Shown here in pieces: positions 48,799-64,000 of a stretch of 64,000 nucleotides of DNA. The stretch's first letter is position 1, and each line of letters opens with the position of its first letter. Location: NCBI GenBank assembly GCA_003856375.1, contig CP034120.1, positions 3,529,501 through 3,593,500 of the forward strand, given 5' to 3'. A program made the translations under genes and the position numbers. A model generated the notes under the pieces. That model was not told where the DNA came from. It made no database searches and saw only the letters and a list, made by a program, of their open reading frames with translations. Source of the DNA: Glaciecola amylolytica (GTDB lineage Bacteria; Bacteroidota; Bacteroidia; Flavobacteriales_D; Crocinitomicaceae).

Positions 48799-51700
48799 AT
48801 GAAGACAAAATTACTATGGGCGGGTCTCTTTAGTTTGTTTTCCTGTTTCATTTATGGGCAAACAACTATTACAACCAACCACCCCAACAATAACGGAAAT
48901 GGCTCCGTTATTTTCAATGTTCAAAACACCAATGCATTTGATATTATCATCACAGCCGTCCAGTGCCACTTAGGTTCAACAGCGACAAATAATATTGAAT
49001 TACTGTATCGCACCACTCCATTTGTCGACAATGCCGCTCCCTGGGATTTCGGAACAGTTGGAGCAGGTCAGAATGGTTGGATTTCAGCTGCGACGGGTGT
49101 CGTTTCCAATTCCAATACCGCAAACGGAATTGTTCCGGCCCTGACATCCATCTCTTTGACGATTCCGGCAGGTGCGACTTATCAACTTGGTTTGTCTGCC
49201 ACGACCATGCAATACTCCTCTCTTACCAACGGAGCCGGAATAAACACATTTTCCGGAGGCGGAGTAAACTTATTAACCGGAGACGGAATCTCCTGGGGAG
49301 GGGTAGTTTATCCTTCCACACCTGCCAACTATCCGCGGGGTTTAATCGGTGGAATCACTTTTATTCCAGCAGTACCATGTACTTCCCCTCCAACAGCGGG
49401 TTCTGCAGCAGCAGCGAACAACCCGATTTGTCCATCTGTAAATAACACCCTTTCATTGACTGGTGGAACCGGAGGAACCGGACAAACTTATCAATGGCAG
49501 AGTTCTGCAACCGGAGCAGCCGGATCATACGCGAATATCGCAGGAGCAACAAACAGCACGTACATCGCGAATCAAACTTCAAATACATATTACCGTTGTT
49601 ATGTAACTTGTTCAGGAATGTCTGATACTACAGCTGCACTACTTGTAAACACGAGCAATTTCATCAACTGTTATTGTACAAGTAATGCAACGAGTACCGC
49701 TGATGAAGAAATTCTGAATGTAACACTCGGAACTCTCAATAACAGTTCCACTTGTTCAACAACCGGAGGTCCGGGATCCATGCAAAGTCAGTATTCCAAT
49801 TACACGGCTTTACCGGCTGCGAACCTTGCCCGCGGTGTGAATTATCCTTTCAGTGTTCAGATCGGAACCTGTGGCGGGAACTTTAACAACATGACGAAGA
49901 TCTATATTGATTATAATCAAAACGGATTGTTTACCGATCCGGGAGAACAAGTATACGCTTCTGCTGCTGCTACAACCGGCCCGCATAGCGAAACAGGAGC
50001 AATCCTGATTCCGGTAACAGCAACACTTGGAAATACACGTATGCGTGTCATTAATGTTGAAACAACCGTAATCGGGAATATCAATCCTTGCGGAACGTAC
50101 AACTGGGGAGAAACAGAAGACTATTTTGTGAATATCGCTCCGGCTCCTACGTGTCCTCAACCTACTGCATTTACAAATCAGGGGGCAACAGATACAGAAA
50201 TCGACCTTTCATGGATTGCAGGCGGTTCTGAAACGTCCTGGCAAATTCAATACGGTCCACCGGGATTCGTACTTGGAACAGGTGATTCTGTTGTTGCTAC
50301 AACAAACCCTTATACATTGACAAACCTGAACCCGAATTCATTCTATCAGGTTTATGTGATGGCTATTTGTTCTTCTACCGATTCATCATTCTATGCAGGA
50401 CCAATTTCCTTTAACACATACAATCAGGGAATTTACATGGATTGGTCTACGGATTGTCCGGCTGCAGGATTCATCGATATCGCGACAACCGGAACGGATC
50501 TGGGCTTGACGGATGACAGTGAAGTAGGAATGACACTTCCTTTCCCTATCTTATATCAGGGTACTTTGGTAAATGACTGTACGATCGGAAACAACGGTGG
50601 TATGGCTCTTGGAACAACTGCAGCTCAGATCGGATATGGTGGTAACATGACAACACTTGTCGGAAACTTCATCTTCCCTTGGGGTGATGACCTGGATGAT
50701 GAGACAGGAAATGTATACCAGCAAACAATCGGTACTGCTCCAAACAGAACATTTATCGTTCAGTGGGACAACATTTGTAACTTCTCAGGTTCCCTGACTG
50801 CTCCTACTGTAACTTTCCAGGCACAGTTTGATGAAGCGACAGGAAAAATCTGGTTTGTATACGACGACGTGGTTTTCGGTGCTCCGAATGCAGGAGACGA
50901 TTATGCTGCAAATGCCGACATCGGTGTTTCAGGACCGAATCAGGATTTGAACGTATCCAATGACAACGCAACTTATTTGCAAAACAATTCGTGTGTGGAG
51001 TTCTATTACACAGACTGTCCGAAACCGAAAAACTTCGTTACGACATTCCTGAATGACGAAGAAATTCAATTCGGATGGACTGCCGGATACTCGAATGAAA
51101 CCAATTGGGTTATTGAATATGATACTGCCGGATTTACTCCGGGAACAGGAACCATTCTGAACGAAACAAACAGTTTCTCGACTATTTCAGGATTGACTCA
51201 ATTGACAGATTACACGATTTACATCTATGCACTTTGTGCGAATGGTGACACTTCGTTGGCATTGATTCACCATTTCACCACTTTGCCTCGTTGTTCCAAT
51301 CCTTCTTCAATCAACGGAACTTCGGCTCCTGATTCATTGAAATTGACTTGGGCATGGACGCAATCAAGTGTGTTGTACCCGATTCAATCATTCAAGATTC
51401 AATATGGAATGACAGGGTTCCCATTGTATTCATCCGGTTCAACAACAGTTCCTGCAAATGGAACAAACTTAGCCGATACGGTAGTTGATACGGATCTAAT
51501 GGGATCTGGTGTTTATCAGGTTTATGTACAAGCTGTTTGTACAACCGGAGACACATCCGCATTTTCAGGTCCGTTTACCATTGTAATGCCGGCAACGAAT
51601 GACACCGTTTGTGGTCAGGAGCTGTTACAATTGGGTGAAACCTATACATTCAATAATGCTGCAGCGGCTGTTTCTTTAAATGAAACAAGCATTGCTCCAC

Positions 51701-52794
51701 CAGCAACCGGTGCTCAAACAACAACCGGATGGGTTAACTCTACTTTGAATGGTACCTTGTGGTATACATTTGTTGCTCCACCGTCAGGTTCTGTGAGAAT
51801 TAATTCTACAGCAATCAACTACAACGGTCAGGCCGCGGTTTACACTGCTGTTAACTGTGCGGATTTCAACACCTTCACTTTTAAAGCTGGTAACGACGAT
51901 GCTATCGGTGGAACAAGTGTTGCTCCGAACTTCACGATTTGTGATCTAACACCGGGAATGACTTATTACATCATGTATGACAAGTTTGACGCAACTTCCG
52001 GAAACTTCAGTCTGAAGGTTACCGAAATCGTATTGGAAGGTGGTGCTGCAAATGCAATTACTAATGTATGTTACGGTAACATCGTAGACTTGTACACAAC
52101 AATCAACGGATTTGATTTGAATGGTACCTGGTCTTCCAACATTCCTGCTGTGAACGCGAGTATCATGAATGACTCTTTGTTTACAACAAACGGATTGGCT
52201 TACCAAACATTTAACTTTGAGTACCGTGTAACGGATGGTTGTGCTTATGATTCGATTATTTCTCAGGTGAAAATCTTCCCTCCTTCCAATGCAGGACAAG
52301 ATGGTGTGATTACTGCTTGTAGAAACGAACCTATCGATTTGTTGGCAGGATTGAACGGAAATGCAGATTTGAACGGTGATTGGTACGATACACAAAATAT
52401 CATCATGCCAAACTCTCAGATCACAACTGAAAACTTCCCCGGACAATACAACTATGATTACGTTTCCGGAAACGGAGTTTGTCCAAACGATACTGCATTG
52501 GTTGTAGTAACTATTTTGAACTGTGACTGGTTGTCTGTAGCTGAAAATGCATTGGAAGCAGTAAGCATTTACCCGAATCCTTCTACAGGATTAGTGTACA
52601 TTGAATCTGGTTTCTCTACAGGAAACTTCGACTTGACTGTGATGGATGTAAACGGCCGCATGATTCAAACAAGTACAAACAGCATTTCTTTGGGTACAAA
52701 TACCATTGATTTGAAAGAAGTTGAAAGAGGTACTTACTTCTTCAAGCTTTCAAACGATGATGCTGAAAAAGTATTCAGAATTGTAATTCAATAA
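48799..52794 (+). CDS. Large T9SS type A secreted protein with GEVED and FN3 domains (paralogue 1)
   Basis: A 1331-residue exported protein (signal peptide ending IYGQ, about residue 22). After a unique N-terminal beta domain and an Ig-like unit comes a GEVED domain (nt about 49885-50140: IYIDYNQNGLFTDPGEQVY, NWGETEDYFV). An FN3-like domain follows, and then an 800-residue module (nt 50414-52794) shared with the next two genes. The module has a beta-sandwich with WGDDLDDETGN, further FN3 units, a CUB-like part with GTLWYTFVAPPSGSVRI, and the type A sorting domain (SIYPNPSTGLVYIES ... GTYFFKLSND). It is expected on the cell surface or released by T9SS. It has no PorP/SprF neighbour, as usual for type A cargo. 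Confidence 0.88.
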   Translation: MKTKLLWAGLFSLFSCFIYGQTTITTNHPNNNGNGSVIFNVQNTNAFDIIITAVQCHLGSTATNNIELLYRTTPFVDNAAPWDFGTVGAGQNGWISAATGVVSNSNTANGIVPALTSISLTIPAGATYQLGLSATTMQYSSLTNGAGINTFSGGGVNLLTGDGISWGGVVYPSTPANYPRGLIGGITFIPAVPCTSPPTAGSAAAANNPICPSVNNTLSLTGGTGGTGQTYQWQSSATGAAGSYANIAGATNSTYIANQTSNTYYRCYVTCSGMSDTTAALLVNTSNFINCYCTSNATSTADEEILNVTLGTLNNSSTCSTTGGPGSMQSQYSNYTALPAANLARGVNYPFSVQIGTCGGNFNNMTKIYIDYNQNGLFTDPGEQVYASAAATTGPHSETGAILIPVTATLGNTRMRVINVETTVIGNINPCGTYNWGETEDYFVNIAPAPTCPQPTAFTNQGATDTEIDLSWIAGGSETSWQIQYGPPGFVLGTGDSVVATTNPYTLTNLNPNSFYQVYVMAICSSTDSSFYAGPISFNTYNQGIYMDWSTDCPAAGFIDIATTGTDLGLTDDSEVGMTLPFPILYQGTLVNDCTIGNNGGMALGTTAAQIGYGGNMTTLVGNFIFPWGDDLDDETGNVYQQTIGTAPNRTFIVQWDNICNFSGSLTAPTVTFQAQFDEATGKIWFVYDDVVFGAPNAGDDYAANADIGVSGPNQDLNVSNDNATYLQNNSCVEFYYTDCPKPKNFVTTFLNDEEIQFGWTAGYSNETNWVIEYDTAGFTPGTGTILNETNSFSTISGLTQLTDYTIYIYALCANGDTSLALIHHFTTLPRCSNPSSINGTSAPDSLKLTWAWTQSSVLYPIQSFKIQYGMTGFPLYSSGSTTVPANGTNLADTVVDTDLMGSGVYQVYVQAVCTTGDTSAFSGPFTIVMPATNDTVCGQELLQLGETYTFNNAAAAVSLNETSIAPPATGAQTTTGWVNSTLNGTLWYTFVAPPSGSVRINSTAINYNGQAAVYTAVNCADFNTFTFKAGNDDAIGGTSVAPNFTICDLTPGMTYYIMYDKFDATSGNFSLKVTEIVLEGGAANAITNVCYGNIVDLYTTINGFDLNGTWSSNIPAVNASIMNDSLFTTNGLAYQTFNFEYRVTDGCAYDSIISQVKIFPPSNAGQDGVITACRNEPIDLLAGLNGNADLNGDWYDTQNIIMPNSQITTENFPGQYNYDYVSGNGVCPNDTALVVVTILNCDWLSVAENALEAVSIYPNPSTGLVYIESGFSTGNFDLTVMDVNGRMIQTSTNSISLGTNTIDLKEVERGTYFFKLSNDDAEKVFRIVIQ
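50414..52794 (+). repeat. 2.38-kb repeated 3' module, copy 1
   Basis: Bases 50414-52794 match 55027-57408 and 59640-62014 closely along their whole length (2381, 2382 and 2375 bases). With copy 2 there are long stretches with only rare, mostly synonymous changes, for example around 50819-51040. Confidence 0.9.
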
Positions 52795-52819
52795 TACACC
52801 TAAATAAATCATCAGTTTC

Positions 52820-52850
52820 AAAACCCTGGCGGAATCGTCAGGGTTTTTGT
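52820..52850 (+). terminator. Terminator after paralogue 1
   Basis: AAAACCCTG (52820-52828) pairs with CAGGGTTTT (52839-52847), with a T-rich tail, 25 bases past the stop. Confidence 0.85.
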
Positions 52851-53065
52851 TTTAAAAAAAATGCTCTGGGATCGAATTCGTGTATTTTTATTTTTTCAGC
52901 AATTTTTATTTTTTTGAGGCTATTTGCGTTTTGTTCATTGAAATTAAATATTTAGTCAATGAACACTTTGTTTTGTTCATTAAACCCACCTCAGATTGAC
53001 TAATCAATCATTGACACATTTCCCCCTCAACGAGATCGACCTTAAATAGTACGTTAATAAATCTA

Positions 53066-53073
53066 TACTTTTG
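53066..53073 (+). promoter_or_regulatory. -7 box for paralogue 2
   Basis: TACTTTTG fits TAnnTTTG, 15 bases before the ATG at 53089; it supports this start over an in-frame TTG at 53071, which lies inside the box. Confidence 0.55.
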
Positions 53074-53088
53074 TTAAAAACTATTGTT

Positions 53089-56000
53089 ATGAAGAAAAAT
53101 TTCAAACAACCCTTATTGGGGGTTATGTTTGCGTTAGGTATTTTGTCCGTTTCCAATGTTCATTCTCAGGTAGATTTAACAGCGACGGGAGGTACTGTAA
53201 CTGCAACTTACACAACTGTAAGTGCAGCATTTACGGCCGTAAATGCTGGAACCCACACAGGCACAATTTCAATTAGCATTACCGGCAACACCACAGAACC
53301 GGCAGCTCCGGTTGCATTATCTGCAAATGGTGTCGGTACGGCTTCTTTTACTTCTTTGGTTATTAAACCAACAGTTGCAGCTATTATCTCCGGTGCTCCG
53401 AACGCGGGAAATGGTGTTATTAACTTCAGCGGATCCGACAATGTAACAATCGACGGTTCTATTGCTGTCGGTGGAACAACTCGTGATCTTACAATCCAGA
53501 ACACCAGTGCAACGACTGTAGGTAACACAACTGCGATCCGTTTAATTGGTCAGACTACTGCAGGAACAGGATTGGCGTTGAACAATTTCACGATCAAAAA
53601 CAACATCATTATCGGTAACACACCGGGAAATAATGGTGCATCAGGAAGTACTGTTACTTCTTCTTATGGTATCTACGCCGGATCCAACTCAACGACAACC
53701 TTGTCTACAACAGGAGCTGGAGCTGACTATGATAACGTTTTGGTAGAAAACAACGAAGTAAAGAAAGCATACATTGGTGTTTACTTCTATGCTGCTACCG
53801 CAAATCAGAACAACAACCTGATTATCCGCGGAAACACAATCGGCTCTGCAACCGCAGCTGACCAAATTGGTTTCAAAGGAATCAATGCGTATCACACGTT
53901 AATCGGTACGATTTCAAAAAACACCATTTTCAATATCCAAACAACTGCCTCTGTAAATGCTGCAGGAATCGAATTGGGTGGAACAACGGATAACGTACAG
54001 GTTTCTTCCAACGTTCTTCGCACAATTTACAATACAGCAACAGGTGGTTGGGGATGTTACGGGATCAATATCGCAGCCGGAACAAACTATGTTATTGACA
54101 ACAACAGCATCTCTGATATCCAGACGACAAACTACAGTGCGACATCTACAACTTACAATGCCTTTGGTATCCGTTTGGTTGCAGGAACAGGTCACAAGAT
54201 TTATTACAACTCTGTTCACCTGTCCGGAAACTACACATATACAGGAAATACTACTGCTTCAAGTGCTGCTCTTGTCGTGACTTCTACAAGTGTAACGGGA
54301 TTGGATATTCGCAACAATATCTTCTCAAACACAATGACTTCTGTGGCTACAGGAGCAAAAGAATTCAGTACAGTATGGTTCCCAGGCGGATACAATTTCA
54401 CCAATGCTTCTCTAGACAGAAACTATTACGGTATTCCGAATGATGCAAACCACCTTGTGGGTAAAATCGGTACAACTGCCGGAACAGGATCTTATGCAAA
54501 CCTGGCTGCATGGCAGACAATTACTCAGGTAAACAATGCTTCTAACAACGTATACTCTGTTCCTATCGCGAACACAGTTCCTCCGTTTACTTCAAACACA
54601 AACTTACTGCCTTTGACAACAGTTCCAACAGCGTTGGAAAGCGGTGCGTTGGCAGTTGCTTCATTGGGAACTCCAAACGTTGATATTACAGCTGCTACAA
54701 GACCAGGTGCAGGAGGTACAAACCCGGATATCGGTGCTTATGAATTCTCCGGTATGCCTATTACGTGTCCTCAGCCATTATCTATGAGTATCATGTCTGC
54801 TTCTTACACCGATGCAAACATTTCATGGAACTCAGGTGGTTCAGAAACATTGTGGCAATTGCAATACGGTGCCCCGGGATTTGCATTGGGTACGGGAACT
54901 TTCGTAACTGCTCCTACTAACCCGGATACCCTTACAGGTTTGACTCCAAACTCTTTTTATCAGGTTTATGTGAGAGCAATTTGCGGATCAGGTGATACTT
55001 CTTTGTGGACAGGTCCAGTGACTTTCAACACTTACAATCAAGGAACTTACATGGACTGGTCAACAGATTGTCCGGCTGCGGGATTCATCGATATCGCGAC
55101 AACCGGAACGGATCTTGGTTTGACAGATGACAGTGAAGTTGGTATGGCACTTCCATTTCCTATTCTTTACCAGGGAACATTGGTTACTGACTGTACAATC
55201 GGGAACAACGGTGGTATGGCTCTGGGAACAACTACTGCTCAGATTGGATATGGTGGTAACATGACGACACTTGCAGGAAACTTCATCTTTCCTTGGGGTG
55301 ATGACATGGATGACGAGACAGGAAATGTGTACCAGCAAACAATCGGTACTGCTCCGAACAGAACATTCATCGTTCAGTGGGACAACATCTGTAACTTCTC
55401 AGGTTCTTTAACTGCTCCAACTGTAACTTTCCAGGCACAGTTTGATGAAGCGACAGGAAAAATCTGGTTTGTATACGACGACGTGGTTTTCGGTGCTCCG
55501 AATGCAGGAGATGATTATGCTGCAAATGCTGACATCGGTGTTTCAGGACCGAATCAGGATTTGAACGTATCCAATGACAACGCGACTTATTTGCAAAACA
55601 ATTCGTGTGTGGAGTTCTATTACACAGACTGTCCGAAACCGAAAAACTTTGTAACAACTTTCTTAAGCGGAAACGAAATTCAATTCGGATGGACTGCAGG
55701 TTTCTCTAACGAAACAGCTTGGATTGTTGAGTACGGAACTGCTGGGTTTACTCCGGGAACAGGAACTATTCTGAACGAAACAAACAGCTTCTCTACTATT
55801 TCAGGTTTGATTCAGTTGACAGATTATACGATTTACATCTACGCAAACTGTGCTAACGGTGATACATCTTTGGCTTTGATTCATAACTTCACCACTTTGC
55901 CTTACTGTTCTAATATCACAGGTCTTGCCGGCGCTGCTGATCCTGACTCTTTGGAGTTAACATGGAACTGGACTGCTTCAAGCGTATTGTATCCGGTAAC

Positions 56001-57408
56001 AGGATTCAAAATTCAATACGGAATGACTGGATTCCCGTTGTATTCTACAAGCTCAATCACAGTTCCTGCAAACGGAATCAACTTTGCTGATACAGTAGTC
56101 GACGCGAACTTAATGGGATCTGGTGTTTATCAGGTATATGTTCAGGCTCTTTGCGCAGGTACAAATGACACTTCAAACTTTGTTGGACCAATCACGATTG
56201 TGATGCCTGCAACGAATGACATCGTTTGTGCACAGGAAGTACTGCAATTAAATCAAACTTATACATTCAACAATGCGACGGCAGCAGTTTCTTTAAACGA
56301 AACAAACATTGCTCCACCGGCTACAGGTGCTCAAACGACGACCGGATGGGTGAATTCTACTTTGAACGGAACCTTGTGGTACACATTTGTTGCTCCGCCG
56401 TCCGGATCTGTGAGAATCAACTCTACAGCAATCAACTACAATGGTCAGGCTGCGGTGTATTCTGCTTTAAACTGTGCGGATTTCAACACCTTCGCTTTTA
56501 AAGCTGGTAACGACGATGCAATCGGTGGTGGAAGTGTTGCTCCGAACTTCACAGTTTGTGATTTAACACCGGGAACAACTTACTACATCATGTATGACAA
56601 GTTTGATGCGACTTCCGGAAACTTCAGCTTGAAGGTTACTGAAATCGTATTGGAAGCAGGATCAATCAACCCGATTACAAATGTTTGCAGTGGTGATACA
56701 GTGAACTTGTTCAACACAATTCTGGGTTACGATGCTGATGGTGTGTGGTCTTCTCCTATCCCGGCAGTAAATGTAAGTATCCAGGATTCACTGTTTGTTT
56801 CAACAGGTCTTGCATACCAGACATTCAACCTTCAATACCGTGTAACAGATGGTTGTGCATATGATTCGATTGTTTCCCAAGTGAAGATCTTCCAACCTTC
56901 CAATGCAGGACAGGACGGCGTGATTACTGCTTGTAGAAACGAACCTATTGATTTGTTGGCAGGATTGAACGGAAATACGGATTTGAATGGTGATTGGTAC
57001 AATACACAGAATATCCTTATGCCAAATTCTCAGATCACAACTGAAAACTTCGCAGGACAGTACAACTACGATTACGTTTCCGGAAACGGGGTATGTCCGG
57101 ACGATACTGCATTGGTTGTAGTAACTGTTCTGAACTGTAACTGGTTGTCTGTAGCTGAAAATGCATTGGAAGCAGTGAGCATTTACCCGAATCCTTCTAC
57201 AGGGCTAGTGTATGTACAATCGACTTTCTCAACAGGAAACTTTAACCTGACCGTGATGGATGTAAACGGTCGTACTGTTCAAACAAGTACAAACACCATT
57301 TCTTTGGGCACAAACACCATTGATTTGAAAGAGGTTGAAAGAGGTACATACTTCTTCAAGCTTTCAAGCGATGATGCTGAAAAAATATTCAGAGTTGTGA
57401 TTCAGTAA
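53089..57408 (+). CDS. Large T9SS type A secreted protein with right-handed beta-helix (paralogue 2)
   Basis: A 1439-residue exported protein (signal peptide MKKNFKQPLLGVMFALGI ... HSQ, about residue 27). Residues about 30-560 form a right-handed parallel beta-helix with many short N-rich turns (SGSDNVTIDGS, NNFTIKNNIIIG, VLVENNEVKKAY, GTGHKIYYNSVHLSGN), ending with NPDIGAYEFSG. An FN3 domain follows, then the shared 800-residue module and the type A sorting domain (SIYPNPSTGLVYVQS ... GTYFFKLSSD). Beta-helices of this sort occur in polysaccharide-binding or polysaccharide-cleaving proteins and adhesins; no catalytic site is evident. It is almost colinear with paralogue 3 over its full length. 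Confidence 0.88.
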   Translation: MKKNFKQPLLGVMFALGILSVSNVHSQVDLTATGGTVTATYTTVSAAFTAVNAGTHTGTISISITGNTTEPAAPVALSANGVGTASFTSLVIKPTVAAIISGAPNAGNGVINFSGSDNVTIDGSIAVGGTTRDLTIQNTSATTVGNTTAIRLIGQTTAGTGLALNNFTIKNNIIIGNTPGNNGASGSTVTSSYGIYAGSNSTTTLSTTGAGADYDNVLVENNEVKKAYIGVYFYAATANQNNNLIIRGNTIGSATAADQIGFKGINAYHTLIGTISKNTIFNIQTTASVNAAGIELGGTTDNVQVSSNVLRTIYNTATGGWGCYGINIAAGTNYVIDNNSISDIQTTNYSATSTTYNAFGIRLVAGTGHKIYYNSVHLSGNYTYTGNTTASSAALVVTSTSVTGLDIRNNIFSNTMTSVATGAKEFSTVWFPGGYNFTNASLDRNYYGIPNDANHLVGKIGTTAGTGSYANLAAWQTITQVNNASNNVYSVPIANTVPPFTSNTNLLPLTTVPTALESGALAVASLGTPNVDITAATRPGAGGTNPDIGAYEFSGMPITCPQPLSMSIMSASYTDANISWNSGGSETLWQLQYGAPGFALGTGTFVTAPTNPDTLTGLTPNSFYQVYVRAICGSGDTSLWTGPVTFNTYNQGTYMDWSTDCPAAGFIDIATTGTDLGLTDDSEVGMALPFPILYQGTLVTDCTIGNNGGMALGTTTAQIGYGGNMTTLAGNFIFPWGDDMDDETGNVYQQTIGTAPNRTFIVQWDNICNFSGSLTAPTVTFQAQFDEATGKIWFVYDDVVFGAPNAGDDYAANADIGVSGPNQDLNVSNDNATYLQNNSCVEFYYTDCPKPKNFVTTFLSGNEIQFGWTAGFSNETAWIVEYGTAGFTPGTGTILNETNSFSTISGLIQLTDYTIYIYANCANGDTSLALIHNFTTLPYCSNITGLAGAADPDSLELTWNWTASSVLYPVTGFKIQYGMTGFPLYSTSSITVPANGINFADTVVDANLMGSGVYQVYVQALCAGTNDTSNFVGPITIVMPATNDIVCAQEVLQLNQTYTFNNATAAVSLNETNIAPPATGAQTTTGWVNSTLNGTLWYTFVAPPSGSVRINSTAINYNGQAAVYSALNCADFNTFAFKAGNDDAIGGGSVAPNFTVCDLTPGTTYYIMYDKFDATSGNFSLKVTEIVLEAGSINPITNVCSGDTVNLFNTILGYDADGVWSSPIPAVNVSIQDSLFVSTGLAYQTFNLQYRVTDGCAYDSIVSQVKIFQPSNAGQDGVITACRNEPIDLLAGLNGNTDLNGDWYNTQNILMPNSQITTENFAGQYNYDYVSGNGVCPDDTALVVVTVLNCNWLSVAENALEAVSIYPNPSTGLVYVQSTFSTGNFNLTVMDVNGRTVQTSTNTISLGTNTIDLKEVERGTYFFKLSSDDAEKIFRVVIQ
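55027..57408 (+). repeat. 2.38-kb repeated 3' module, copy 2
   Basis: See copy 1. The first third (WSTDCPAAGFIDIATTG to the NSCVEFYYTDCPKP region) is nearly identical to copy 1. The part around CSNITGLAGAADPDSLEL differs from copies 1 and 3, which resemble each other there. Confidence 0.9.
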
Positions 57409-57433
57409 TAGATCTAAAATAAATCATCAGTTG

Positions 57434-57470
57434 CAAAACCCTTTCTGTTTCAGGAGGGGTTTTGTTTTAA
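57434..57470 (+). terminator. Terminator after paralogue 2
   Basis: CAAAACCC (57434-57441) pairs with GGGTTTTG (57457-57464), followed by TTTT; it corresponds in position to the terminator after paralogue 1. Confidence 0.75.
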
Positions 57471-57680
57471 AAAAATCATTAATCCCGGAATTTGTTTATT
57501 TTTTAGTCTTTTTAAACATTTTTATGTTTTTTTGGCTATAAGGTTTTTGTTCGCTGAAAAGAAAAATTTATTCGTCGAAAGCCTCATTTCATTCAGCGAA
57601 ACAATTCTTGTTGACCAGTCAATCATTGATACCTGGTATCTCGTGCTATTCCCTCGTAATTAATCAAGTTGACAAATAAT

Positions 57681-57688
57681 TATCTTTG
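57681..57688 (+). promoter_or_regulatory. -7 box for paralogue 3
   Basis: TATCTTTG fits TAnnTTTG, 15 bases before the ATG at 57704, the same distance as for paralogue 2. Confidence 0.55.
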
Positions 57689-57703
57689 TCGAAACTGATG
57701 ATT

Positions 57704-60700
57704 ATGAAGAAAAATTACAAGCAGCCCTTACTGGGGGTTATGTTTGCGTTAGGTATTTTCTCCGTTTCCAATGTCCATTCTCAAGTGGATTTGACGGCAA
57801 CCGGAGGTACCGCGACTGCAACATACACCACCGTAAGTGCAGCATTTGCAGCAGTAAATGCTGGAACTCACACAGGTACAATTTCAATTAGCATTACCGG
57901 AAACACCACAGAACCTGCAACTCCGGTTGCATTATCTGCAAATGGTGTAGGTACGGCTTCTTTTGCTTCTCTGGTTATTAAACCTGCAGCAACAGCGATT
58001 ATCTCCGGTGCACCTGACGCAGGAAACGGAGTTTTAAACTTTAGCGGATCTGATAATGTGACTATTGACGGTTCCATTACTCCGGGAGGGACAACAAGAG
58101 ACCTTACGATCCAAAACACGAACGCAAATACTATTTCCAACACAGCTGCCATTCGTTTGATTGGTCAGACTACTGCAGGAACAGGATTGGCGCTTAGCAA
58201 CTTTGCTATCAAGAACAACATCCTTATTGGTAGCACAACAGGAAACAACGGTGCATCAGGAAGTTCTGTTACCTCTTCCTACGGAATCTACGCAGGATCG
58301 AGCTCAGCAACCACGATGTCTTCAACTGGTTCAGGTGCAGATTATGACAACGTATTGGTTGAAAACAATGAAGTAAAGAAAGCTTACATCGGGGTTTACT
58401 TTTACGGTGCTGCTGCAAACCAAAACGACAACCTGATTATCCGTAAAAACACAATCGGCTCTACAACTGCCGCTGACCAAATTGGTTACAAAGGAATCAA
58501 TGCGTATCACACATTAATCGGTACAATTTCTCAAAACACGATTTCTAACATTCAGTTGAGTACATCTGTAAACACAGCTGGAATTGAAGTTGGTGGAACA
58601 TCTGACAACGTGAAAATATCGTCTAACGTGATCAGTTCTGTTTACAGTACATCAACAAGCGGTTACGGTAGCTACGGAATCAACATCGAAGGCGGAAACA
58701 ATTATGTTGTAGACAACAACAGTATTTCTGATATTAAAACGATCAATTATAGCGCTACATCTACCACTTACAACGCTTTTGGTATTCGTATCACTTCAGG
58801 AACAGGTCATAAAATTTATTACAACTCTGTTCACCTTTCAGGAAACTACACAAATACAGGTTCAACAGTTGCAGCAAGTGCAGCTCTTACAGTAACTTCA
58901 ACAAGTGTTATCGGTTTGGATATCCAGAACAACGTGTTCTCAAATACGATGACATCTGTAGCAACAGGAACAAAAGAATTCAGTACAGTATGGTTCCCTA
59001 GCGGATACAATTTCACCAATGCTTCTTTAAACAGAAATTATTACGGAATTCCGAATGACGCAAACCACCTGGTTGGAAAAATCGGAACAACTACAGGAAC
59101 AGGAAACTATTTGAACCTGGGTACATGGAAAACAATTACGCAAGTAAACAATGCGGGTAACAACGTGAACTCAGCTCCGGTTTCCAACACACTTGCTCCG
59201 TTTACTTCAAACACAAACTTAGTGCCTTTGACAACAGTTCCGACTGCTTTGGAAGGTGGTGCTTTAGCAATTGCTTCATTAGGTTCTCCAAATGTAGATC
59301 TTACCGGCGCAACAAGACCGGGTACAGGAACAAACCCTGATATTGGTGCTTACGAGTTTTCAGGAATGCCTATTACTTGTCCTCAGCCATTATCCATCAC
59401 GGTTCAATCTGCAGCACTTACCACTGCTAACATTACATGGAACTCAAGTGGGTCAGAAACATTGTGGCAGTTACAATACGGTGCTCCGGGATTCGTATTG
59501 GGTTCAGGAACAAGCGTACTTGCTCCTACTAACCCTGATACCCTTACAGGTTTGACTTCAAACTCATTCTATCAGGTTTATGTCAGAGCGATTTGTGGTG
59601 CAGGTGACACTTCATTATGGACTGGTCCTGTTTCTTTCAACACTTACAATCAGGCTCCTTATATGGAGTGGAAATCTAATTGTCCGAATGCAGGATTCAT
59701 TGATATCGCAGCAACAGGAACTGATCTTAACTTGACAGATGACAGTGAACAAGGAATGACACTTCCGTTCCCTATTTTATATCAAGGTACTTTAGTTAAT
59801 AACTGTACAATCGGAAATAACGGTGGTATGGCTCTTGGAACAACTACAGCTGATGTTGTACCATCTCCGGGAAGCATGACGGGATTAGCAGGAAATTTCA
59901 TTTACCCTTGGGGAGATGATATGGATGATGAGTCAGGAAATGTATACCAACAAACAATTGGTACTGCTCCAAACAGAACGTTCATCGTTCAGTGGGACAA
60001 TATCTGTAACTATTCAGGTTCTGCAACAGCTCCAACAGTAACTTTCCAGGTACAGTTTGACGAAGCGACAGGAAAAATCTGGTTTGTATACGATGACGTA
60101 GTTTTCGGTGCTCCGAACGCTGCAGATGATTATGCTGCAAATGCTGACATCGGTGTTTCAGGTCCGAACCAGGATTTGAACGTATCCAATGACAACGCTG
60201 CTTATTTACAAAACAATACGTGTGTGGAATTCTTCTACACAGATTGTCCGAAACCAAGAAGCTTTGTAACAACTTTCTTGAGTGCTGAAGAAATCCAATT
60301 CGGATGGACAGCAGGATTATCAAGTGAAACAGCATGGATTATTGAATACGGTCCTGAAGGATTTACTCCGGGAACTGGTACAACAATCAATTCAACCAAC
60401 AGTTTCTCAACGATCACCAACTTGGTACAAGTATCAGATTACACGATTTACATCTATGCAAACTGTGCTAACGGTGATACATCTTTGGCTTTGATTCACA
60501 ATTTCACAACCTTGCCTCGTTGTTCCAATCCTTCTACAATTGGTGGAACTGCAGCTCCGGATTCATTGAAATTGACTTGGGCATGGACACCGTCAAGCGT
60601 ATTGTATCCTGCTCAATCATTCAAGATTCAGTACGGAATGACAGGATTCCCATTGTACTCAGTACCTTCTGTTACAGCAAACGGAACAAACTTAGCTGAT

Positions 60701-62014
60701 ACCATTCACGATGCAGCACTAATAGCTTCAGGTGTTTACCAGGTTTATGTACAAGCTGTTTGTCTTGGTGGAGATACCTCTTCATTTGTAGGACCTTACA
60801 CGATTGTAATGCCGGCAACAAACGACATCGTTTGTTCACAGGAATTGTTACAATTAGGTCGTACATATACTTTCAACAACACTACAGCAACTGTTTCTAC
60901 CAATGAAACATTGATTGCTCCTCCTGCAACGGGTTCTCAAACAACAACAGGATGGGTGAATTCTACTTTGAACGGTACCTTGTGGTATACATTCGTTGCT
61001 CCTCCGTCCGGATCTGTGAGAATCAACTCTACGGCAATCAACTACGATGGTCAGGCTGCTGTTTACTCTGCAACTAACTGTGCAGACTTCAACACATTCT
61101 CGTTGAAAGCTGCTAACGATAACGCTATCGGTGGAACAAGCAATGCTCCTAACTTCACAGTTTGTGGATTGACTCCGGGAACGGCTTATTACATCATGTA
61201 CGATAAGTTTAACTCTACAGCAGGAAACTTCAGCTTGAATGTTTCTCCAATCGTATTGGAAGCAGGAACAACCAGCTCAATTACAAATGTTTGTACAGGT
61301 GATACAGTGAACTTGTTCAACACCATTGTAAATTACAACACAGGCGGAACCTGGTCTTCTTCTATTCCGGCAGTAAACATCAGTCTTCAGGATTCCTTGT
61401 TTATCTCAACAGGTCTTGCATACCAGACATTCAACCTTCAATACCGCGTAACGGATGGTTGTGCATATGATTCGATTGTTTCTCAAGTGAGAATTTTCAA
61501 GCCTTCAAATGCTGGTCAGGATGGAATCATTACAGCTTGTAAGAATGAGCCTATCGATTTATTGGCAGGATTGAACGGAAACACAGATTTGAACGGTGAT
61601 TGGTACAATACACAAAATGTCCTTATGCCGAACTCTCAGATCACAACTGCAAACTTCCCGGGACAATACAACTACGATTACGTTTCCGGAAACGGAGTTT
61701 GCCCGGATGATACGGCAATGGTTGTAGTAACTGTTCTAAGCTGTAACTGGTTGTCGGTTGACGAGAATGCATTGGAAGAAGTAAGCATCTATCCGAATCC
61801 TTCTACAGGTTTGGTATATGTTGAATCTACATTTGCAACAGGTAGCTTTAACTTAACTGTTACAGATATCAACGGACGTACAATCCAGACAGGTAAAAAC
61901 ACTATTTCTTTGGGTACAAACACCATTGATTTGAAAGATGTTGAAAGAGGTACATACTTCTTCAAACTTTCAAATGACAGTGCTGAAAAAGTATTCCGAA
62001 TCGTGATTCAGTAA
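57704..62014 (+). CDS. Large T9SS type A secreted protein with right-handed beta-helix (paralogue 3)
   Basis: A 1436-residue protein, colinear with paralogue 2: signal peptide MKKNYKQPLLGVMFALGI ... HSQ, beta-helix (about residues 30-560, with SGSDNVTIDGS and GTGHKIYYNSVHLSGN conserved), NPDIGAYEFSG, FN3, the shared module and the type A sorting domain (SIYPNPSTGLVYVES ... GTYFFKLSND). Differences lie mostly in loops. In the module WSTDCPAAG reads WKSNCPNAG, and AQIGYGGNMTTL is replaced by ADVVPSPGSMTGL. I chose ATG 57704 by analogy with paralogue 2; ATG 57698, two codons earlier, is also possible. Surface or released protein; specific role unknown. Confidence 0.88.
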   Translation: MKKNYKQPLLGVMFALGIFSVSNVHSQVDLTATGGTATATYTTVSAAFAAVNAGTHTGTISISITGNTTEPATPVALSANGVGTASFASLVIKPAATAIISGAPDAGNGVLNFSGSDNVTIDGSITPGGTTRDLTIQNTNANTISNTAAIRLIGQTTAGTGLALSNFAIKNNILIGSTTGNNGASGSSVTSSYGIYAGSSSATTMSSTGSGADYDNVLVENNEVKKAYIGVYFYGAAANQNDNLIIRKNTIGSTTAADQIGYKGINAYHTLIGTISQNTISNIQLSTSVNTAGIEVGGTSDNVKISSNVISSVYSTSTSGYGSYGINIEGGNNYVVDNNSISDIKTINYSATSTTYNAFGIRITSGTGHKIYYNSVHLSGNYTNTGSTVAASAALTVTSTSVIGLDIQNNVFSNTMTSVATGTKEFSTVWFPSGYNFTNASLNRNYYGIPNDANHLVGKIGTTTGTGNYLNLGTWKTITQVNNAGNNVNSAPVSNTLAPFTSNTNLVPLTTVPTALEGGALAIASLGSPNVDLTGATRPGTGTNPDIGAYEFSGMPITCPQPLSITVQSAALTTANITWNSSGSETLWQLQYGAPGFVLGSGTSVLAPTNPDTLTGLTSNSFYQVYVRAICGAGDTSLWTGPVSFNTYNQAPYMEWKSNCPNAGFIDIAATGTDLNLTDDSEQGMTLPFPILYQGTLVNNCTIGNNGGMALGTTTADVVPSPGSMTGLAGNFIYPWGDDMDDESGNVYQQTIGTAPNRTFIVQWDNICNYSGSATAPTVTFQVQFDEATGKIWFVYDDVVFGAPNAADDYAANADIGVSGPNQDLNVSNDNAAYLQNNTCVEFFYTDCPKPRSFVTTFLSAEEIQFGWTAGLSSETAWIIEYGPEGFTPGTGTTINSTNSFSTITNLVQVSDYTIYIYANCANGDTSLALIHNFTTLPRCSNPSTIGGTAAPDSLKLTWAWTPSSVLYPAQSFKIQYGMTGFPLYSVPSVTANGTNLADTIHDAALIASGVYQVYVQAVCLGGDTSSFVGPYTIVMPATNDIVCSQELLQLGRTYTFNNTTATVSTNETLIAPPATGSQTTTGWVNSTLNGTLWYTFVAPPSGSVRINSTAINYDGQAAVYSATNCADFNTFSLKAANDNAIGGTSNAPNFTVCGLTPGTAYYIMYDKFNSTAGNFSLNVSPIVLEAGTTSSITNVCTGDTVNLFNTIVNYNTGGTWSSSIPAVNISLQDSLFISTGLAYQTFNLQYRVTDGCAYDSIVSQVRIFKPSNAGQDGIITACKNEPIDLLAGLNGNTDLNGDWYNTQNVLMPNSQITTANFPGQYNYDYVSGNGVCPDDTAMVVVTVLSCNWLSVDENALEEVSIYPNPSTGLVYVESTFATGSFNLTVTDINGRTIQTGKNTISLGTNTIDLKDVERGTYFFKLSNDSAEKVFRIVIQ
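59640..62014 (+). repeat. 2.38-kb repeated 3' module, copy 3
   Basis: See copy 1. This is the most diverged copy in the first third, but its CSNPSTIGGTAAPDSLKLTW part matches copy 1 better than copy 2 does. Confidence 0.88.
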
Positions 62015-62041
62015 GTAAACTGATTCTTAATTCATTTTTAG

Positions 62042-62076
62042 AAACCCCTCCCGGAATATTCCGGGAGGGGTTTTTT
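62042..62076 (+). terminator. Strong terminator after paralogue 3
   Basis: A perfect 32-bp palindrome (62042-62073, arms AAACCCCTCCCGGAAT and its complement) followed by T residues, 27 bases past the stop. Confidence 0.92.
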
Positions 62077-62299
62077 GTTGATTAATCAATAATTGTAACA
62101 ATAGTTGATGTAAAAATTAACATGACAATTGCTTTATCAATGTGAAAAATCACTGATTTCACCACCTGATAAAACTCAATAAAAACAAGGCTTACAGAAG
62201 AAAAAAACCATCCATCACGAAAACTTCACGTATTAGATACTCAATATGTTATCTCAGTAAAAAGAAAAAAAATAATGTATTAATAAACTGTTATTATTT

Positions 62300-62307
62300 T
62301 ACATTTG
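62300..62307 (+). promoter_or_regulatory. -7 box for the last gene
   Basis: TACATTTG fits TAnnTTTG, 26 bases before the ATG at 62334. No -33 match seen. Confidence 0.45.
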
Positions 62308-62333
62308 CCTGAACATCTACTAAATAAAAACTT

Positions 62334-64000
62334 ATGAAGAAAACACTACGAAAGTATCTCGCGATGCTATCCTTACTCGTTACATCAATTTTTTTGAGTT
62401 CGGGTTGGGCACAAATCAATTACACAGCCAATTTTGATGTCGACATGCAAAGCTGGACATCACCCGGAGGAGACTTTAATCAGTTCACGGGAGCTACAGC
62501 ATGTAACACCGGTGCAGTACGCACCAATCTTTACAGCGGGAATGCTGATGCGATCTTTTTATCACCTTCTTTAGGTACAGCAAGTGGTAATGGAGTTATC
62601 ATGTCTTACGACTACAAAGTAGCCAACTGGAGTGCCAACACAACCGGTACATCCAACCCTTGGGGAAGCTTTGTTGTGGAGTATGCAAGTGCTGCGGGAG
62701 GACCGTGGACAGCTGTTGCAGGATCTACCGTAAACCAATCGAATCACACAGTTTCAGGAAGCTGTGCGACTAAAACAATTGGTTTCACTCCTCCGGCAGG
62801 AGCTCTTTTTGTTCGCTTCAACTGTATCTGGTCTGCAGGAGATTATTATCTCAACTTTGACAATATTACATTGCAAGACGCTGCTGCTCCTCCAACACCA
62901 ACACAAGCAGCAGGAATCCCGACTTGTTCAGCAGGTACTACCATTGATGTTACAGGAACTCCTCCTGCAAATACGACCTGGTACTGGCAGTCAAGTGCAA
63001 CAGGAACAAGTACAGCAAATGCTTATGCAGGACCGTTTACAATCAACGCGAACGGAACTTATTACATGAGAGCATTAAACACGCTTTACAACGTTTGGTC
63101 TGCTGCTTCTTCAGTAGTAGTAAGCAACTTCCCTGTTGTTACAACTCCACCCGTTCCGACGGCAGGACAAAACCCTGCTTGTGCACCTGGAACAACGTTA
63201 ACAATGCCTACACCTGCTGCCGGTTATGTTGATTACTGGCAAACAAGTGCAAACCCACCATTCACAACTACGAACTCCGCTGCAACACCGTTAAACGTGT
63301 CTTCTACCGGAACTTATTATGTAGCTACCTATGAAACTGCAAGCCAGTGCTGGTCACCTACAAGTTCTTTAGCAGTTACAATAAACTCCGTTATCCCTGG
63401 AAACCCAACAGCGAATCCAAGCAATTACAATTACTGTACAACAGCATCTCCGATGCCGGTTGTTGCTCAGATTCCTGTTTTAAGCGGACCTCAAACCTGT
63501 ACGGTTTCAGGAAGTGCTTCAGGAACGGATAATTCTGGTGTTACTGCGACGGTAACAAACTTCAGCTGTCCGAACGGACCAATCACATCAGCTTCATTGG
63601 CTTCAACAATCAGTGGTAGTTTTTGTGGAACATGGTACTCATATAACATTGTTGTAAACGGTACTACGGTTGCAACGAACCAATGTAACCTGGCTAGCTT
63701 CAACTTAACTCCATATTTACCATTGACTTCAGTTTCAATTGTTTCTGTAGATAATGACAACTTTGGAGATGGTGTTACTTTGAACTTAACAGTTACTCTG
63801 AACTTTACAGGACCACTTCCAACTCAGCCAGCTTATACTATTGATTGGTTTAGTGCGGCTACAGGAGGAACTCAGGTTGGGAACACGGCATCTATGAATG
63901 CTTTGGGAACTTCTGTTTTGCCAACTCCAACAAACGGTACTTATACTTTCTATGCGCAAACAAACCTTGGAAACTGTATGAGTCCTGCACGTGTTCCTGT
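62334..64000 (+). CDS. Large secreted Ig-like repeat protein, 3' truncated by window end
   Basis: The frame is open from ATG 62334 to the end of the window (555 codons) with no stop. It begins with a signal peptide (MKKTLRKYLAMLSLLVTSIFLSS ... WAQ). Residues about 28-185 form a jelly-roll-like domain (SWTSPGGDFNQFTG ... YYLNFDNITLQD) like the start of the HYR protein at 26416. Next come Ig-like units of about 80 residues with TWYWQSSATGTSTA- and YVDYWQTSANPPF-type motifs, and a segment with Cys pairs (about residues 360-475). The sorting domain would lie outside the window; T9SS export is expected from composition and context only. It has its own promoter box and is separate from the type A array. 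Confidence 0.85.
   Translation, partial: MKKTLRKYLAMLSLLVTSIFLSSGWAQINYTANFDVDMQSWTSPGGDFNQFTGATACNTGAVRTNLYSGNADAIFLSPSLGTASGNGVIMSYDYKVANWSANTTGTSNPWGSFVVEYASAAGGPWTAVAGSTVNQSNHTVSGSCATKTIGFTPPAGALFVRFNCIWSAGDYYLNFDNITLQDAAAPPTPTQAAGIPTCSAGTTIDVTGTPPANTTWYWQSSATGTSTANAYAGPFTINANGTYYMRALNTLYNVWSAASSVVVSNFPVVTTPPVPTAGQNPACAPGTTLTMPTPAAGYVDYWQTSANPPFTTTNSAATPLNVSSTGTYYVATYETASQCWSPTSSLAVTINSVIPGNPTANPSNYNYCTTASPMPVVAQIPVLSGPQTCTVSGSASGTDNSGVTATVTNFSCPNGPITSASLASTISGSFCGTWYSYNIVVNGTTVATNQCNLASFNLTPYLPLTSVSIVSVDNDNFGDGVTLNLTVTLNFTGPLPTQPAYTIDWFSAATGGTQVGNTASMNALGTSVLPTPTNGTYTFYAQTNLGNCMSPARVP

Follow-up and report, generated by a model that had tools for sequence, protein, structure and literature searches.

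Mosaic tracts in a tandem array of predicted type IX secreted proteins and their probable origin by recurrent gene conversion

The window, a stretch of 64,000 nucleotides from the genome of Glaciecola amylolytica (contig CP034120.1, positions 3,529,501 to 3,593,500), ends within an array of tandem genes on its forward strand. The genome is complete and forms a single contig of 4,606,342 bases, Fluviicola species are the closest to it among named organisms, and a plasmid search gave no match. The earlier note described three copies of a repeated module at this locus and proposed that their mixed relationships reflect gene conversion. The array consists of four genes, not three, and the fourth crosses the end of the window. 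Its features are the following:

48799..52794, + strand: gene 1, of 1331 amino acids, with its own N-terminus carrying a GEVED domain, three fn3 domains and a C-terminal sorting domain of the type IX secretion system (T9SS)
50428..51012, + strand: beta-sandwich domain of gene 1, weakly nidogen-like, of the A type that is common to genes 1, 2 and 3
50626..51032, + strand: tract of near-identity between genes 1 and 2 (equivalent in gene 2, about 55240-55646; permutation p=2e-4)
51205..51654, + strand: tract in which genes 1 and 3 pair, as do genes 2 and 4, over the end of the second fn3 domain and the third
51655..51990, + strand: galactose-binding-like domain (GBD_T9SS, sub-threshold), homogenised, the four window genes forming one clade
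51895..52234, + strand: tract in which genes 1 and 4 pair (86-96%), as do genes 2 and 3, with an insertion of one codon common to genes 1 and 4
52310..52794, + strand: 3' segment with the T9SS sorting domain, homogenised per genome across the genus, its similarity stopping at the stop codon
52795..53088, + strand: spacer between genes 1 and 2, with a terminator-like hairpin and a weak relation to the spacer between genes 2 and 3 only
53089..57408, + strand: gene 2 (ATG at 53089; open reading frame from a TTG at 53071), with an N-terminus of the gene 3 type followed by the common module
57409..57703, + strand: spacer between genes 2 and 3, with a terminator-like hairpin
57704..62014, + strand: gene 3 (ATG at 57704; open reading frame from a TTG at 57686), also continuing into the common module
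62015..62333, + strand: spacer between genes 3 and 4, with a terminator-like hairpin, unrelated to the other spacers
62334..64000, + strand: first part of gene 4; the complete gene (L034:14329-18873) reaches about 66872, beyond the window

The common module begins at about 50152 in gene 1, is present in all four copies and comprises, in this order, an fn3 domain, the beta-sandwich, two further fn3 domains, the galactose-binding-like domain, a putatively Ig-like region and the T9SS sorting domain. Only fn3, GEVED and Por_Secre_tail are recovered by Pfam in the array proteins, with NIDO and GBD_T9SS below threshold. A structure model of the module (pLDDT 62) supports the fn3 domains, and most of its Foldseek matches are fn3 chains; the poorly modelled part we infer to be Ig-like. 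The beta-sandwich of gene 4 belongs to another type, with about 52% nucleotide identity to the A type.

The array occupies a common site across the genomes that were compared, with 1 to 4 copies, and its outer members keep their place in the family: gene 1 is the orthologue of the first (A-position) gene of the relatives (82-86% amino acid identity), and the N-terminus of gene 4 is orthologous to that of the last (C-position) gene, at 64-65% in two relatives. The N-terminus of genes 2 and 3, which are 83% identical to each other in this part, is common to that pair only among the array genes compared. These two N-termini (53089-54765 and 57704-59377) are unrelated to the relatives' B-position genes and have no Pfam match, and they may have arisen by a domain swap in the 5' part of the gene; a predicted structure, which was beta-rich, was set aside because of its low confidence (pLDDT 45).

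The products of genes 1 to 3 end in a T9SS sorting domain that scores well above the curated cut-offs (42.8-45.6 bits for TIGR04183, cut-off 23; 46.9-51.8 bits for PF18962, cut-off 27), which is the property that defines type A cargo of this system, and the C-terminus of gene 4 is 88-94% alike to those of the three genes scanned. The array proteins are probably exported by the type IX secretion system and attached to the surface, and the combination of fn3, beta-sandwich and sorting domains suggests a role in binding at the cell surface or in the matrix.

The conflict of relationships that the earlier note had seen among three copies is real and becomes decisive with gene 4 and the relatives; three copies by themselves cannot conflict, since three sequences have one unrooted tree and four have three testable topologies. 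For the four copies of the window, the best single topology is 55 lnL units worse than topologies left free. The PHI-style test, which like the GENECONV-style one was an own implementation by permutation, gave p=5e-4, the lowest value that 2000 permutations allow, with all sites as well as with the synonymous ones alone, and a chi-square test of the split counts gave p=4e-27 for all sites and 7e-5 for synonymous ones. One constant tree is rejected with the four copies, and again when 17 genes from relatives are added. The tracts described below are internal to the genes, have trees unlike those of their flanks and carry statistical support, as is expected of gene conversion.

Sliding identity along the four copies reveals successive changes of partner. 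Genes 1 and 2 share 92-98% of their nucleotides at about 50600-51040, and their dS is 0.18-0.33 inside the tract at 50626-51032 and 0.7-3 around it. The near-identity of copies 1 and 2 reported earlier was confirmed, 217 of 222 bases being identical between 50819-51040 and 55433-55654 with no amino acid changes, and so was the distinctness of copy 3, which has ADVVPSPGSMTG where the other two have AQIGYGGNMTT. Over 50500-51100, copies 1, 2 and 3 form one group, within which AU values cannot separate the pairings 12, 13 and 23 (p=0.28-0.43), and in quartets over 50400-51200 the top topology is 12|34, mostly without significance. The contrast of copies 1 and 2 with copy 3 is statistically the weakest part of the case, and it rests on the pattern of identity and dS and on the permutation test.

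The strongest evidence is provided by the two tracts that follow, at 51205-51654 and 51895-52234. Genes 1 and 3 have their best nucleotide identity at 51205-51500, and within this region the segment 51289-51354 is significant by the GENECONV-style permutation (p=2e-4, the same value as for the tract of genes 1 and 2). The quartet is 13|24 both at 51205-51530 (alternatives at AU <1e-4) and at 51535-51650 (AU about 0.005). The earlier reading of this part also holds, as copies 1 and 3 agree (CSNPS...LKLTWAW) and copy 2 has CSNITGLAGAADPDSLELTWNW there. Downstream of about 51895, and as far as the stop codon, it is genes 1 and 4 that are alike, at 86-98% nucleotide identity, while genes 1 and 2 drop to 61-68% around 52040-52220. 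The quartet at 51895-52234 is 14|23, with the other topologies about 82 lnL worse (AU <1e-58), and it remains so at 52235-52500 (AU of the alternatives, 0.04 and 5e-4). Between genes 1 and 4, dS is low at the 3' end (0.08-0.4) and reaches about 1 or higher values upstream. Gene 1 here holds a domain of the gene 4 type, unlike every other A-position gene, and the one-codon insertion of the tract is absent from all aligned genes other than genes 1 and 4.

The relatives provide the outside reference for these changes, in trees of 21 array genes, namely the four of the window and the 17 from relatives. In the segment before the module, genes group by their position in the array, and a single clade of the window genes is rejected (p=3e-4); in the 3' segment, all four genes of the window fall into a single clade (100/99), and it is the A-position clade that is rejected (p=4e-4). 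Between these, at 52000-52230, gene 1 groups with gene 4, its placement with the other A genes being rejected (p=1e-3). The window genes form one clade at 51650-51950 and 52240-52790, where the other genomes also tend to cluster their own copies. The 3' portion of approximately 480 bp groups by genome and the upstream domains by gene position. In five relatives, the nearest neighbour is the orthologue at the same position over most of the gene and the paralogue of the same genome from about 52310, a flip that occurs near this point in 10-11 of 14 relatives' genes. Concerted evolution, in which paralogues are closer within a genome than orthologues are between genomes and which is driven by gene conversion (PMC6053082), is therefore seen only at about 51710-52010 (in part) and 52310-52794, not upstream. 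The same switching of partners is found in a second genus, in whose eight-gene array of this family (L044, L045) neighbouring genes are as much as 98% alike at the 3' end. Another member of the genus has an open frame of >2846 amino acids of the same family (L042:5464-14001), possibly a fusion of array genes.

The mosaic was very probably made by recurrent gene conversion between the tandem paralogues, as had been suggested: the tracts are internal, their flanks have other affinities, similarity ends at the stop codon, and the N-termini of genes 1 and 4 are still orthologous by position. The four genes would be old tandem paralogues for multi-domain (fn3, beta-sandwich, Ig-like) proteins, in which homologous recombination between copies would have replaced stretches of about 100-900 bp inside the genes, repeatedly and without exchange of the flanks. 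The likely donor of the beta-sandwich domain is gene 1, with genes 2 and 3 as recipients; the third fn3 domain would likewise have passed from gene 1 to gene 3, and the region around 51895-52234 from gene 4 to gene 1, directions that are suggested because one copy departs from its own positional orthologues. The export and anchoring end would be freely homogenised, and the middle domains would persist as distinct types, either through selection for different binding domains or through divergence beyond the identity that recombination needs, or both.

Some tracts may derive from other species and not from sister copies. In two close relatives whose arrays are mostly 93-100% alike (L036, L040), the C gene has, close to its 3' end, about 300 bp that are only 77-81% alike, and no donor was found in the sampled array family; this implies that import from an unsampled lineage also occurs, or that one of the draft genomes is chimeric there. 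In the window itself, the closest sequence to gene 3 at 52492-52672 is the C gene of another species. Both facts would suit allelic replacement from other Fluviicola lineages, by transformation or conjugation, as the general origin of the mosaic, but this is improbable, given that the main tracts are by far nearest to the sister gene of the same genome (92-98%, against 64-86% for other species) and that all four 3' ends fall in one clade. Unequal crossing-over with whole-gene duplication has also been considered, since the number of copies at the site varies among genomes and genes 2 and 3, with their common N-terminus and weakly similar spacers, resemble a tandem duplicate. These processes alone would nevertheless have to produce several changes of partner within one gene, and the identity between genes 1 and 4 collapses directly after the stop codon, beyond which the DNA is unrelated, which argues against unequal crossing-over; such an origin is very hard to credit.

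An artefact of assembly, in which near-identical repeats were joined wrongly, is rated a little lower still: the longest exact runs (92 bp between genes 1 and 2, 130 bp between genes 1 and 4) are near short-read lengths, yet the genome is a single contig, the mosaic lies mostly in sequence that is 70-90% alike, and independent assemblies of related arrays, as well as the second genus, behave alike. Least credible of all is that the alike segments are the product of uneven constraint or convergent selection on the proteins. Although some of them are conserved at the protein level across the genus, the switches remain at synonymous sites in both the PHI-style and chi-square tests, dS falls along with the tracts, and genes 1 and 4 share an indel. 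Recurrent conversion, combined with a certain amount of import from other lineages, accounts for all the observations.

The gingipain and HagA proteins of Porphyromonas gingivalis are exported by the T9SS; gingipains are proteases, and their genes are dispersed. In Kgp, RgpA and HagA the types of cleaved adhesin domain form mosaics unlike the phylogeny, a pattern that the authors ascribe to rearrangement of the domains, to allelic exchange and to gene conversion (PMC5266723). The array resembles this system in that it too concerns Bacteroidota proteins, here of predicted surface location, with mosaic domain types, and differs from it in being tandem, in its fn3, GEVED and beta-sandwich domains, and in being compared across species of a freshwater genus. 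Pfam detected no cleaved adhesin or gingipain protease domains in the array proteins, which on the domains found are therefore outside the gingipain/HagA family. The other close parallel is prokaryotic concerted evolution, of which 22 of 26 long-lasting cases concern stable protein complexes; neither "surface" nor "adhesin" is used as a word in that paper (PMC6053082). The array paralogues are similarly alike within a genome, with the difference that homogenisation is limited to part of the gene. Gingipain/HagA mosaicism and prokaryotic concerted evolution would thus be the nearest parallels to the array.

The mgpC/MgPa system uses partial archived copies. In Mycoplasma genitalium, mgpC/MgPa is reported to encode an adhesin of the cell surface and to vary through recombination inside one genome (PMC2169797), and to that extent it is comparable, as a case of surface-protein genes recombining within one genome. 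In the array, by contrast, all four copies are complete genes, and searching the genome with segments of them yielded no additional close copy. Antigenic variation from silent cassettes (of the pilS or MgPa kind) was judged unlikely, the window copies being full-length open reading frames; a DNA search of the genome for partial donor copies found the array only, plus one 70% match of 463 bp.

Among the papers examined on T9SS and gene conversion, the P. gingivalis study was the only pertinent one. The process is already known and the present instance is new, with an unusually sharp division between the uniform and the distinct parts of the genes. It provides a clear example, among freshwater bacteria for which several related genomes have been sequenced, of conversion confined to a portion of each gene. 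Trees built for such families would mislead unless they are split by domain, and orthology assigned from C-terminal similarity would be wrong. It is conceivable, though doubtful, that the array works as a generator of diversity for T9SS surface proteins, in which continual conversion would keep the export and anchor end interchangeable and a limited set of divergent middle types would be swapped, giving new combinations without loss of secretion. The array is in any case a natural set-up in which to ask whether the limit of conversion is sequence identity or selection on the binding domains.
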